A DNA stretch of 32,566 bases from an uncultured Caulobacterales bacterium (GTDB lineage Bacteria; Pseudomonadota; Alphaproteobacteria; Caulobacterales; Maricaulaceae), in the NCBI GenBank assembly GCA_938001915.1, contig CALLBD010000076.1, positions 1-32,566 on the forward strand. Reading direction: 5' to 3'. A program made the translations under genes and the position numbers. Under the pieces are notes generated by a model. It made no database searches. It was not told the DNA's origin and saw nothing but the letters and a program-made list of their open reading frames with translations. The number at the start of each line of letters is the position of its first letter. The stretch's first letter is position 1. Of this stretch, positions 29,547 to 32,566 are shown in pieces.

Positions 29547-29975
29547 ATGACACTTTTGAAAGCAAGCTTCTATTCTGTCGCAGCGGCAGCCGTTTTGAGT
29601 TTTTCGACGAGCGCATATGCGAATAACACATTCGCAAATGCTACAAATACGACAAACCCTTTTCTCGCTGGCGCTGTTCCCGATAAGTCCAATGTCCAAT
29701 ATTTGCGCCTCTTCGATGTCAGCGCCTTGCCCCATCGCGGCGAGAGATATTTAGGCTCAAGCCGGACCGCGACGTTATATTTCAAAAAAGGTGTCAAGAA
29801 TTTTGAAAAGGGTAATCTTGATAAAGCCGCTCGGCATTTCAAAGCTGTCCTCAGAGCGGATGGATCGAGAGGCCTAAATAAGGCGACCTATCACTACCTT
29901 ACGAACATCACGCATAAACAAGGCGATGAGGCCCAAGCTAAATCCTATGCGCAAGCCTATTACAATATAAGGTAA
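29547..29975 (+). CDS. Small secreted TPR-like protein
   Basis: This 142-residue protein starts MTLLKASFYSVAAAAVLSFS with a Sec signal peptide cleaved after AYA. The mature chain has one or two TPR-like helix pairs: ATLYFKKGVKNFEKGNLDKAARHFKAVLR followed by KATYHYLTNITHKQGDEAQAKSYAQAYY. The start has TTGGAGGG close upstream; an in-frame start 141 bases further out would hide the signal peptide. A strong promoter precedes it. The function is unknown, and small exported TPR proteins commonly act as scaffolds. A GC-rich hairpin follows the stop. Confidence 0.8.
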   Translation: MTLLKASFYSVAAAAVLSFSTSAYANNTFANATNTTNPFLAGAVPDKSNVQYLRLFDVSALPHRGERYLGSSRTATLYFKKGVKNFEKGNLDKAARHFKAVLRADGSRGLNKATYHYLTNITHKQGDEAQAKSYAQAYYNIR

Positions 29976-29995
29976 GGCCCCGGCATATGCGGGCC
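29976..29995 (+). terminator. GC-rich hairpin directly after the TPR-like gene
   Basis: GGCCC (29976-29980) pairs with GGGCC (29991-29995), and the interior GCATATGC is itself self-complementary. It starts at the first base after the stop codon. There is no adjacent T run, so it may stabilise the 3' end or act as a weak terminator. Confidence 0.4.
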
Positions 29996-30049
29996 GCCTG
30001 AGGACGCGCTGTCCTTACACACGTCTTTTTCACATCTCGCTCACAGTCA

Positions 30050-30192
30050 GTTTTATTGTATGTGAACGCCCTTTCCGCTTTAAGGTAGCTATCTCTTATC
30101 CCCTTGGAGATACACCTCAGTCTCGGTTTTCCCCTGGCCAGACTGAATAAGTAAAGCAGGATTGGCCGCTCCTCCCTCAGGGCCAATCCTGC
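30050..30192 (+). ncRNA. Repeated structured RNA element, copy A
   Basis: This copy opens with GTTTTATTGTATGTGAACGC and continues through CTTTCCGCTTTAAGGT to about 30086. It has a small hairpin TATCTC/GAGATA (30090-30112) with loop TTATCCCCTTG. The terminal hairpin pairs GCAGGATTGGCC (30156-30167) with GGCCAATCCTGC (30181-30192); its 13-base loop contains CTCCTCCC, an anti-Shine-Dalgarno-like sequence. No T run follows. A second 3' arm, CCAATCCTGCG, lies at 30205-30215 and could compete. Copy B shares the first block and terminal hairpin with compensatory change. It may be a small RNA or the leader of the 51-codon ORF. Confidence 0.7.
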
Positions 30193-30238
30193 GTACTTAA
30201 TTCACCAATCCTGCGCAAATACTTCGAATGAGACACCC

Positions 30239-30394
30239 ATGCTACGCGACCAAAAAATCAAAAAGCTCAAAGCAGAAATTACACATCATAAAGCGGCCTG
30301 TCTTCGGGCGTGGCCAAAGCCGAGTGATTACACCCGTCTGATTGACGCGCAATATGCGCTGCGGGCGCTACGTGCAGATGAAGCGGCAGGCTAA
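30239..30394 (+). CDS. Small basic protein (51 residues), unknown
   Basis: A complete frame from ATG 30239 to TAA 30392-30394 encodes a basic, largely helical protein starting MLRDQKIKKLKAEI and ending LRADEAAG. It has a Trp-Pro turn (RAWPKPSDY) between two helices. A weak GAG lies seven bases upstream. It sits exactly between the two structured RNA copies, which makes expression plausible. It is not DUF1127 as far as I can see. There is no signal peptide or membrane helix. Confidence is moderate because the frame is short and there is no strong Shine-Dalgarno. Confidence 0.5.
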   Translation: MLRDQKIKKLKAEITHHKAACLRAWPKPSDYTRLIDAQYALRALRADEAAG

Positions 30395-30421
30395 ACGCCG
30401 CTCACGGCGACCTCACACTCT

Positions 30422-30575
30422 GTTTTATTGTATGTGAACGCCGCTTCCGCTTTAAGGTCTTTAACGCTTCTTACCTCGAAGATGTTACCTCAATCTCGGC
30501 TCTCCCCTTGGCCTGATTGAAAGACTTAAGCAGGATTGACCCGTCCCCCAGAGGGTCAATCCTGCCCCTTTTTTT
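30422..30575 (+). ncRNA. Repeated structured RNA element, copy B, with intrinsic terminator
   Basis: This copy repeats the opening block of copy A (37 positions with two mismatches). A hairpin follows at 30463-30486, where AACGCTTC pairs with GAAGATGTT around TTACCTC; it replaces the sequence but keeps the C-rich loop of copy A. The terminal hairpin pairs GCAGGATTGACCC (30530-30542) with GGGTCAATCCTGC (30553-30565) around a loop with CCCCC. Seven T follow at 30569-30575, so this copy ends in a textbook terminator. Relative to copy A, one G-C pair is replaced by A-T in both arms. Confidence 0.75.
30530..30575 (+). terminator. Rho-independent terminator at the end of copy B
   Basis: A perfect 13-bp stem and a ten-base loop are followed by CCC and then T7. 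It would end transcripts from the small ORF and copy B before the GAF-LuxR gene region. Confidence 0.85.
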
Positions 30576-30654
30576 CATTTAATACAGCCGCATTATCCCG
30601 CGTCCTAAAAGCTCCACCTCAGCGGCAATAGCTGCCCCGAAGGCAGATCTTTCG

Positions 30655-30869
30655 CGCCTCACATTCCTGTGAACCGCCCTAATTAATCTTGCAAAGCGTC
30701 ATCTAATACCCCAGAGATAAGCTCCCTATAGACATCACGGGGCCGTGTGGGGCGCGACCGAGGCATTGATTGATTCAGGCAATTGCTTCGCCATTAAACT
30801 CTATCTCTGTCTTTTTCCCGTGGTGCGAAAGCTGCGATCAGTCTGACCTTTGCGGTCAATACTGCCCCC
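30655..30869 (+). ncRNA. Degenerate third copy of the RNA element before the GAF-LuxR gene
   Basis: The 5' part CCTCACATTC...CTGTGAACCGCC (from 30655) recalls the start of copies A and B without the TTTTATTGTAT stretch. Near the 3' end, TGACC (30844-30848) pairs with GGTCA (30854-30858), with CAGT/ACTG outside, and the 3' arm GGTCAATACTGCCCC nearly repeats copy B (GGTCAATCCTGCCCC). The middle is poorly conserved. It ends about 45 bases before the GAF-LuxR start and could be its leader. Apart from this the stretch 30576-30909 shows nothing clear, only small hairpins such as CTGCC/GGCAG. Confidence 0.4.
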
Positions 30870-30909
30870 TTGGAACCGAGTGAAACAGAAAAGATACCCA
30901 TGAAATTAA

Positions 30910-31671
30910 ATGTCTGAGGATACCAACACCCCCCCACATAAATCCCGTCTCGCCGCGCTTGAGGACATGCAGGTGCTCGATAGTGGCTCGGAGGCATTTT
31001 ATGACGATATAACCCACCTCACCGCAGCGTTATGCGAGGCGCCTATTTGCCTGATCAGCCTTGTCGATGAAGACCGGCAATGGTTTAAATCCGAGGTCGG
31101 CCTATGCCTGTCAGAAACCGTCATCGAGCAATCCATATGTGTCCATGCGGTGCAACAAAATAGCTATCTTGAAGTCTTCGACACGCAGCTTGATCCGCGC
31201 ACGCAGGATAATGTGCTATGCCGGGGGAGCAGGCCTATCCGCTTCTATGCAGGCGCGCCTTTAAAAACGACAGAAGGCCTCGCCCTCGGTACGCTTTGCG
31301 TATTGGATTACATGCCGCGACAGCTGACCAAACTTCAGCGCCGCGCGCTAGAGATTCACGCCAATATCGTGACCCGGCACTTAGAATTCACGCGAACACT
31401 TGTCAGGCGAGAGCTTGTCCCCGCAACGCAGGATCTGGACGCCTATAAGGCGACACAAGCCGAATTCGAATCGCTGACCCCGCGCGAAAAAGACGTTCTC
31501 AAATTAATCGCCGGACCCAGCGCCAGCTTAAGCAGTAAGCAAATTGCGGCGGAATTGGGCATTAGCCACCGGACGGTGCACCACCACCGCGCCCATATCA
31601 TGACTAAGATGAAAGTGACCTCTGTCGCGGAGTTAATCACCAAATGCCTCAAAGCCGAGCTTTACGACTAG
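30910..31671 (+). CDS. GAF-domain LuxR-type transcriptional regulator
   Basis: This 253-residue protein has a GAF domain in residues ~24-165 (AALCEAPICLISLVDEDRQWFKSEVGL and YAGAPLKTTEGLALGTLCVLD), a type that senses small molecules or redox/light signals in related proteins. It ends in a LuxR/FixJ-type helix-turn-helix at ~187-245 with SLTPREKDVLKLIAG, SSKQIAAELGIS and HRTVHHHRAHIMTKM. It lacks a response-regulator receiver domain, so the GAF domain likely controls DNA binding. The signal is unknown. A degenerate RNA element precedes it and a hairpin covers its stop codon. Confidence 0.9.
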   Translation: MSEDTNTPPHKSRLAALEDMQVLDSGSEAFYDDITHLTAALCEAPICLISLVDEDRQWFKSEVGLCLSETVIEQSICVHAVQQNSYLEVFDTQLDPRTQDNVLCRGSRPIRFYAGAPLKTTEGLALGTLCVLDYMPRQLTKLQRRALEIHANIVTRHLEFTRTLVRRELVPATQDLDAYKATQAEFESLTPREKDVLKLIAGPSASLSSKQIAAELGISHRTVHHHRAHIMTKMKVTSVAELITKCLKAELYD

Positions 31672-31685
31672 CTGTTTCCAGCTAG
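31668..31685 (+). terminator. Hairpin overlapping the stop of the GAF-LuxR gene
   Basis: CTAGCTG (31668-31674) pairs perfectly with CAGCTAG (31679-31685) around TTTC. It includes the TAG stop codon. No T run follows, so it is probably a 3'-end or processing structure and not a classical terminator. Confidence 0.4.
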
Positions 31686-31766
31686 GCAATCATACGCATA
31701 GACACATAAATTTTTGGTTGTAGTAAGGGGACATCAAGTAAAACATGCGCCCCGTTTTATTTGTTC

Positions 31767-31795
31767 GAGCCCAGAGCTACTACAGCGCTGGGCTC
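31767..31795 (+). terminator. Hairpin GAGCCCAG/CTGGGCTC, possible terminator
   Basis: GAGCCCAG pairs with CTGGGCTC, and GCT/AGC extends the stem inside across a mismatch. It lies about 100 bases after the GAF-LuxR gene. C-rich sequence and then TTATTT follow, so termination would be weak. Confidence 0.45.
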
Positions 31796-32159
31796 CTCCC
31801 CCCCCTTATTTCTGCCGCAGCGGGGATTAATCCTCATTTCAAACCCGTCCGCGCGGCCCAAAAACACTGCGCTTTCAATCGCTTATAAAATAAATAAAAA
31901 ACTTGTTCCTCACACTGCAATTTCACCCGCATATTAACTCTCGTTCTTTCGGACATTGGACAAGTAAGACGTCACTTACCTGTATCGAGAGACGGTGGAG
32001 TTGAGCGTCTGATTAAGTGCAAATCGCATTCGCGAAATGCACGAGACACATCAGAGTGTGCCGGACTTTTTGAAGTGAGAGCCGATGCCTGAGGCCAAAG
32101 TTGCCTCAACTGGTAGGACAGACGGGCCGCTTCATCAAAAACCATCGCCGCGTGGCCAA

Positions 32160-32184
32160 GTTGATTGATTTCAAATCAATCAAC
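32160..32184. promoter_or_regulatory. 25-bp palindrome, candidate operator
   Basis: The arms GTTGATTGATTT and AAATCAATCAAC are perfect inverted repeats of 12 bp around a single C. Such a long AT-rich palindrome with a one-base centre is more typical of a regulator binding site than of an RNA hairpin. It lies 225 bases upstream of the partial gene at the window edge. Confidence 0.55.
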
Positions 32185-32408
32185 AAGGGAGCGGAATGGG
32201 CTTATGGCCCAATCCGCTATGATCTCTGCGTAAAACACATTATTATCTCTGGTCTCCATCGCGGAGATCACCACGCGGGCCGTCCTTTTTTCGAGGGCTT
32301 CGCCCTCTAATGCGCGCCGCCGCCGGCCAACCCGGCGCGGAATGCTTCTGAAAAAACCTTGGCAGTTCCTTTGATGGACTGTGAGCCTAACCGCGTGAGA
32401 GAAACACA

Positions 32409-32566
32409 ATGCCCCGAAAACCTGACCATCCCCCGACCCTCAGCGTCCAAGAGCAGCTGCGCTGTCTCCATCTCGCGGTGAAGCTCCGCAGTGAGCAGGT
32501 GAAATTGCGTCGGCTGGAGTGGGACACCCAAGAGCTGGCCCTGCCGCATATCTGGCCGCTGCCGGG
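32409..32566 (+). CDS. Partial hypothetical protein, truncated by window edge
   Basis: An open frame begins at ATG 32409, with GAGAG seven bases upstream, and continues to the end of the window (52 complete codons). It starts MPRKPDHPPTLSVQEQLRC and is basic and helical, with Trp residues. The family cannot be named from this much sequence. Its codon use is more GC-rich than that of the region before it. Confidence 0.5.
   Translation, partial: MPRKPDHPPTLSVQEQLRCLHLAVKLRSEQVKLRRLEWDTQELALPHIWPLP

Follow-up and report, generated by a model that had tools for sequence, protein, structure and literature searches.

The locus and the repeat unit

The window, which is the whole stretch of 32,566 nucleotides that was analysed, is part (contig G000:C76) of a 120-contig assembly that is 89.65% complete. 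The host is a marine relative of Caulobacter. The best named relatives of its sufU-like protein are in Litorimonas cladophorae (80% identity) and Hellea species (71-77%), which places the host in the Caulobacterales near Hellea. Two tandem copies of a repeat, called A and B, lie on either side of a small open reading frame, orf51. The features of the locus are:

beside A/B, - strand: thrS-like gene, which we take to be such from its translation
near A/B, - strand: YidD gene (Pfam scan)
near A/B, - strand: NifU_N gene (Pfam scan)
29547-29975, + strand: TPR-like gene upstream of copy A, below the Pfam cut-offs
30040-30192, + strand: copy A
30040-30086, + strand: 5' block of A, equal to that of B at 43 of 47 positions; probable promoter/operator DNA
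30090-30112, + strand: hairpin 1 of A in the MFE fold, loop UAUCCCCUU
30117-30146, + strand: hairpin 2 of A, with U-G pairs, loop UUCCCCU; predicted fold and double change against B
30156-30192, + strand: hairpin 3 of A, loop CCUCCCUC with two closing inner pairs, tip CUCCUCCCUCAG; double change against B
30239-30394, + strand: orf51, a basic protein of 51 residues (pI 9.8) between A and B
30412-30565, + strand: copy B
30412-30458, + strand: 5' block of B, probable promoter/operator DNA on the same basis as in A
30462-30487, + strand: hairpin 1 of B in the predicted fold, loop UUACCUC
30490-30520, + strand: hairpin 2 of B, loop CUCCCCUU; predicted fold and double change against A
30530-30565, + strand: hairpin 3 of B, loop CCCCA with two closing inner pairs, tip GUCCCCCAGA; double change against A
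30569-30575, + strand: seven consecutive T behind copy B; together with hairpin 3 they probably form an intrinsic terminator
30910-31671, + strand: GAF-LuxR gene downstream of copy B

Orf51 is probably coding, as its coding score of 0.19 per codon is close to the in-frame median of 0.20 and exceeds the 95th centile of the other frames (0.15). It looks like an orphan. There is no Pfam match over the cut-off (DUF6891 is sub-threshold, E 0.03) and no NCBIfam match, and no homolog was found in 59 relatives, six of which gave short matches with E 0.03 or worse. The TPR-like protein presumably begins with a signal-like segment. The host encodes it a second time, at G000:C37:23439-23837, and a search of 60 genomes gave homologs in 4 of 17 congeners and in a single further member of the family. 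The sufU-like gene is present in 16 of the 18 genomes of the genus. At the 15 other loci of the genus, compared with flanks of about 1.5 kb (one locus is shorter), the TPR, orf51 and GAF-LuxR genes were not found beside it (tblastn, E <=0.01). Positions 31680-32408 form a stretch of about 700 bp with several palindromes, no clear gene and no Rfam match to E 5, and a small open reading frame follows at 32409. The window contains no tRNA or tmRNA.

The two tandem copies of the original prediction are real. They are 78% identical at an offset of 372 bp, and a blastn search with B as query returns A (30040-30192) at 78% identity and E 5e-27. Three ungapped repeat families give A-B spacings of 372-374 bp and identities of 76-84%. 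The copies begin 10 nucleotides earlier than had been claimed: the homology starts at CTCACA (30040 and 30412) and its other end is the terminal stem. The flanks of A and B share only matches of 7-17 nucleotides (E 0.7 or worse) and none that are longer, so that the repeat unit is one block.

The substitutions between A and B, counted in ungapped columns, are distributed unevenly. There are 4 in the 47 positions of the 5' block, 12 in the 27 of the hairpin 1 region, 5 in the 33 of the hairpin 2 region, 4 in the 9 of the linker and 7 in the 36 of hairpin 3. The 5' block, rightly described as nearly identical, is thus the slowest-changing part of the repeat, and it halts immediately ahead of hairpin 1. 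A slow block followed by a fast hairpin 1 region is fitted better by a promoter plus an RNA than by the RNA of about 145 nucleotides that had been proposed. The block is therefore more likely to be promoter DNA than RNA, and each RNA, with the block outside it, would probably be about 105 nucleotides long. The block of A contains an inverted repeat, TCACA-N15-TGTGA (30041-30065), and a weak TTGTAT-N17-TTTAAG, and a sigma-70 consensus scan called no promoter in the 5' block.

The consensus scan called no terminator at A or B. The T-run after B was probably missed because three C separate it from the hairpin. Copy A has no T-run behind hairpin 3. At 30183-30225 the 3' arm of A's terminal stem is repeated in tandem (21 nucleotides, spacing 22), which yields two possible 3' arms and may have displaced a T-run after A.

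A candidate for a decayed third copy was noticed downstream of B, at 30658-30871. It consists of a shortened CTCACA...TGTGAAC block and a GGTCAATACTGCCCCCTT tail in the same order, and is marginal. Full-length alignments of the two copies both fall in 30787-30893, with p 0.03 for A and p 0.04 for B. The 3' part of B gives p 0.0075 (30829-30871) and that of A p 0.12, placed elsewhere; the 5' block of A gives p 0.10 (30658-30680) and that of B p 0.14, placed elsewhere. Model R1 (see below) has no match in this region, and a third copy is not claimed.

Predicted hairpins, paired changes and C-rich loops

The predicted fold of either copy has three hairpins. The folding z-scores are -3.6 (A) and -4.9 (B) over the spans first proposed, and -5.1 and -6.6 for hairpins 1-3 alone. 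The middle of the repeat had been said to keep one hairpin with a C-rich loop; the C-rich loop is there, but there are two such hairpins. RNAalifold, applied to the alignment of the two copies (A2), gives a structure of 23 pairs, comprising hairpins 2 and 3, all of which are kept in both copies. Hairpin 1 is predicted in A and in B, yet its pairs differ and it adds no shared pair to the consensus structure.

The change of a G-C pair to A-T in both arms of the terminal stem, which had been pointed out originally, was found in hairpin 3 at columns 85/103 of A2. A second double change is located in hairpin 2, at columns 39/63, and one further pair has a one-sided change. Sliding the partners in the structure leaves no double changes. 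In 20,000 simulations with five changed bases among the paired columns, all 23 pairs were kept in 0.095% and at least two double changes arose in 0.11%, the structure having been read from the same two sequences that were used to test the pairing. When all 28 substitutions were placed anywhere, at least two double changes arose in 12.7% and all pairs were never kept. A shuffle control reached as high in 131 of 500 cases, two rows giving this control no power. The changes do preserve pairing, as had been held; as an argument for selection on RNA they are weak, since they come from two copies in one genome.

Another possible source of the paired changes is template switching from one arm of a quasi-palindrome to the other. 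In that case A and B would be plain DNA repeats, a duplicated terminator or palindrome with arms matched by such switching, and would make no regulatory RNA. In A as in B, hairpin 3 forms a long quasi-palindrome that folds strongly whichever strand is taken (z -4.8 and -4.9 in A, -8.2 and -6.5 in B). Its 3' arm is repeated after A, and the relatives searched hold no copy. Nevertheless, this explanation is improbable. Hairpins 1 and 2 fall well below shuffled sequences on one strand only (z -3.3 in A and -3.7 in B on the + strand, -0.8 and -1.8 on the - strand), the second double change lies outside hairpin 3, and the most conserved part of the repeat is the 5' block, which the duplication of a terminator does not explain.

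The strand preference also bears on an RNA from the - strand, which would titrate CsrA/RsmA with GGA loops in the manner of CsrB/RsmY. In favour of this proposal, the loops on that strand read CAAGGGGAUAA, CCAGGGGAAAA and GAGGGAGG. Hairpins 1 and 2 are weak there, however, and the T-run and the U-G pairs of hairpin 2, which would read A-C on the - strand, fit the + strand. No Rfam model of CsrB/RsmY matches the window at the gathering cut-off or positions 29900-30750 to E 10. A titrating RNA at this locus is very hard to credit.

All six predicted loops are C-rich, the weakest being that of hairpin 1 in B, which has no CCC. The C-rich loop pattern, defined after A and B had been seen, fits 59 of the 726 + strand hairpin loops found elsewhere in the window and all five that the scan caught inside the element; these are hairpins 1 and 2 of both copies and one alternative fold, the scan having missed hairpin 3. 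Within the window, only A and B have three such hairpins in series. In a scan of both strands that covered 590,513 bases and kept overlapping loci, the other 73 sequences added one case; the shuffled set gave two. Each copy alone is thus rare but not unique, and the two are not independent. The observation of the pair is confirmed and is modestly unusual.

The loops were originally suggested to bind ribosome-binding sites. They are complementary to G-rich sites of this kind, but the computed preference is only weak. Against 28 start regions of the window, the loops of hairpins 1, 2 and 3 of A pair about 2.5, 2.4 and 2.3 standard deviations better than shuffled loops, that of hairpin 2 of B 1.7, and the other two of B within 1; the starts were picked partly by Shine-Dalgarno strength, which favours C-rich queries and makes the comparison partly circular. 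The upstream TPR gene, with the Shine-Dalgarno sequence UUGGAGGG, has a computed energy of -13.5 kcal/mol with loop 2 of B. The tip of hairpin 3 in A contains UCCUCCCU (30170-30177), whose first U is predicted to be base-paired; B lacks this sequence.

Taken together, A and B are most likely a pair of new small RNA genes with a known way of working, candidates recognized from their sequence. At a probability of roughly 60%, they encode sibling trans-acting RNAs that block translation by pairing of their loops with G-rich ribosome-binding sites. A unit of promoter plus RNA would have been duplicated, and the 5' block of each copy would drive + strand transcription of an RNA with three hairpins. 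The loops of A (UAUCCCCUU, UUCCCCU and CCUCCCUC) and those of B (UUACCUC, CUCCCCUU and CCCCA) would pair with Shine-Dalgarno regions. Transcription of B would stop at the intrinsic terminator, whereas that of A, which has no T-run, may partly run on through orf51 into B, with later cutting. The repeat, the + strand bias, the pair-preserving changes, the C-rich loops, the T-run after B and UCCUCCCU in A count for these genes. Counted against them are the lack of any promoter or terminator call in the consensus scan, the end of A without a T-run, the first loop of B, the weak pairing with start regions, the dependence of the paired changes on two copies, and a hairpin 1 without shared pairs.

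The ends of the copies can be read differently, with A, orf51 and B as one transcript in which A is the leader, B the terminator or 3'UTR, and the hairpins serve the transcript itself, in cis, through attenuation, stability or processing. A T-run after B and none after A would be expected of such a transcript, and orf51 scores like a real gene. This arrangement is nonetheless rather unlikely: a 3'UTR copy would have no need of a near-identical 5' block, a cis element does not require all of its loops to be C-rich, and the start region of orf51 pairs poorly with the six loops (-2.7 to -6.9 kcal/mol).

Search for relatives and known small RNA systems

The search for copies in related genomes, among which covariation was to be checked, turned up no copy of A/B in any genome searched, and this counts against the small RNA genes preferred here, as it is unusual for a useful small RNA. 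Blastn found no copy in 39 relatives, the best short match (E 0.12) being at chance level, and model R1 found none in the 17 congeners or at 52 sufU loci of named records. The core of the 5' block, allowing up to 3 mismatches, matched twice among 137 genomes of the family, both times at A/B themselves; the 136 others include the 17 congeners, and the reversed control of this pattern matched in 3 genomes. An exact pattern had no match in the genome and viral collections. Inspection by eye saw no copy at five of six loci with other TPR homologs and in part of one GAF-LuxR locus. The weak matches were rejected: that of R1 in L087 (15 bits, E 0.3) is at chance level, those in G015 and G005 (E 0.06 and 0.15) resemble ordinary gene terminators, and those of blastn in five plasmid records (E 2 or worse) are again at chance level.

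Rfam gave no match at the gathering cut-off in the window. On 29900-30750, to E 10, there were three matches, none meaningful. The mir-26 model (27.1 bits on the + strand and 24.7 on the - strand, E 5e-4 and 3e-3, cut-off 57) is an animal microRNA model lying on a long hairpin, and the ar35 model gave no match over its cut-off. Among the matches listed from the open-licence literature, there is no report of A/B for small RNAs of Hyphomonadaceae or Caulobacterales, nor for Hellea, Litorimonas or Robiginitomaculum.

The known systems are described here from excerpts of the cited papers. The ar14 RNAs of Rhizobiales (NfeR1 or 'cuckoo', RF02344) have three hairpins with variable stems and CCUCCUCCC in every loop, and occur in several copies per genome (PMC10746234, PMC7143759). 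Their layout, three hairpins each with an unpaired C-rich, anti-Shine-Dalgarno-like run in the loop, is also that of the predicted folds of A/B, and the pair is comparable to their several copies. Unlike ar14, A/B do not repeat the same CCUCCUCCC from loop to loop (8 of its 9 letters occur in the tip of hairpin 3 in A), most of the stem sequence of hairpins 2 and 3 is shared by A and B, and the lineage differs. The ar14 model had no match in 29900-30750 to E 10 or in the genome to E 1. CCTCCTCCC is absent from both strands of the window and has 7 copies in the whole genome, compared to 16 of the reversed control.

CcsR1-4 of Rhodobacter (RF02791) are, like A/B, tandem RNAs with C-rich loops that adjoin a gene for a small protein (PMC10253847, PMC8625941). 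They have two hairpins in the Rfam model and a CCUCCUCCC motif, whereas A/B have three hairpins. Furthermore, the CcsR RNAs lie downstream of the DUF1127 gene ccaF1 and are cut from its 3'UTR (PMC10253847, PMC8625941), while A and B flank an unrelated open reading frame and have a 5' block each. Release from a single precursor by RNase E is a further mark of CcsR. The CcsR model had no match in 29900-30750 to E 10, and a Pfam scan found no DUF1127 in the five neighbouring proteins; the intervening protein does differ, as had been stated. Membership of A/B in ar14/cuckoo or CcsR is rejected, there being no model match, no CCUCCUCCC and no DUF1127 gene. The likeness to tandem CcsR/cuckoo RNAs that was pointed out originally is borne out as one of manner.

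In Caulobacter, the alphaR8 RNAs SisA-D share the core UUUCCUCCCU; repression by SisA works through pairing ahead of a start codon (PMC12559287). Together with MmgR of Sinorhizobium they resemble A/B as sibling small RNAs, in Caulobacterales (PMC12559287), and the UCCUCCCU of A equals the last 8 of the 10 letters of their core. The alphaR8 core is single-stranded and follows a weak hairpin, and the terminator is a distinct element (PMC12559287), whereas only UCCUCCCU was found at the locus, in the tip of A's hairpin 3; no single-stranded UUUCCUCCCU lies ahead of a terminator. In the excerpted account the Caulobacter siblings have no shared upstream motif, while A and B share one, and in most species one alphaR8 copy is beside an FGase (N-formylglutamate amidohydrolase) gene (PMC12559287). 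FGase is not among the neighbours of A/B (thrS-like, YidD, NifU_N, TPR-like, GAF-LuxR).

GsrN of Caulobacteraceae also has a C-rich loop, which pairs with a G-tract in an mRNA leader, but this loop is single and 5', the promoter is of the sigma-EcfG type and general-stress genes are usually nearby (PMC5869019). None of these genes is among those identified beside A/B. LhrC1-5 of Listeria, an unrelated organism, are likewise multicopy and have three redundant UCCC sites covering the Shine-Dalgarno sequence, although one of the three is a single-stranded linker and not a loop (PMC4132741). By every test of membership that could be run, A/B stand outside the known systems, the exception being the three-hairpin layout.

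A C-rich-loop 3'UTR RNA in the genus

The ar14 model had no match over its cut-off in the 18 genomes of the genus. Its best weak match, in G003 (33 bits, cut-off 58.8; 28 bits with the CcsR1 model, cut-off 65.3), immediately follows a conserved 214-codon gene that belongs to no Pfam family. Homologs of this gene are present in 20 of 60 genomes and in 13 of the 18 within the genus. The 3'UTRs of all 20 were folded, and 12, all from this genus (12 of 18 genomes) and including the host (contig G000:C39), have an RNA of two hairpins with changing stems. The first loop contains CCCC, the second CUCUCC in 11 of 12, and UUUU follows right behind in 9 of 12. The 12 RNAs are:

G000:C39:1386-1469, host: 3'UTR RNA (L184, L202)
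11 congeners: 3'UTR RNA (L177-L179, L182, L183, L185-L188, L190, L191)

Eight homologs in which the pattern is partial or absent (L180, L181, L189, L192-L196) were left out of the alignment; C-rich loops are nevertheless present in L181, L189 and L194.

In hairpin 2, to which the covariation test applies, 6 of 11 pairs are changed on both sides over the 12 rows, and 95.5% of the cells pair. On four of five measures none of 500 shuffles did as well, and on the fifth, pair types, 46 did; slid versions have at most two double-changed pairs. Selection of the rows by eye and a structure drawn up by hand favour this result. At E <1e-4 model R2 recovers the same 12 genomes, which follows from how it was built. 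It also matches a second place in G012, which shares 96% identity with the first over 284 bases and is therefore probably a duplicate contig. Elsewhere in the family R2 gives weak matches, with E 0.004 at best; at E <=0.5 it matches 28 of 137 genomes in total. Rfam gave no match over its cut-offs for the 10 RNAs scanned (all of the 12 but L179 and L185). As R2 matches neither A nor B, kinship of the 3'UTR RNA with A/B is unsupported. The RNA is not described in anything searched.

That the genus has a further RNA whose two loops are C-rich and which covaries strongly also counts for the reading of A and B as small RNA genes. If A and B are made and active, they illustrate the fast rise and duplication of multi-loop anti-Shine-Dalgarno regulators beyond Rhizobiales and Rhodobacter, without sequence relation to the known families tested. 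A more tentative and doubtful proposal is that A, orf51 and B form a recent, species-level riboregulator module. Two anti-Shine-Dalgarno RNAs and a small basic, possibly RNA-binding, protein would then have evolved separately from ccaF1-CcsR, in a genus already carrying the 3'UTR RNA. Such RNAs would in that case have arisen repeatedly in Alphaproteobacteria, with lasting constraint on the C-rich loops only. The 3'UTR RNA itself, whose C-rich loops are conserved while the stems change and covary strongly (12 of 18 genomes), brings the cuckoo/CcsR pattern into the Caulobacterales.
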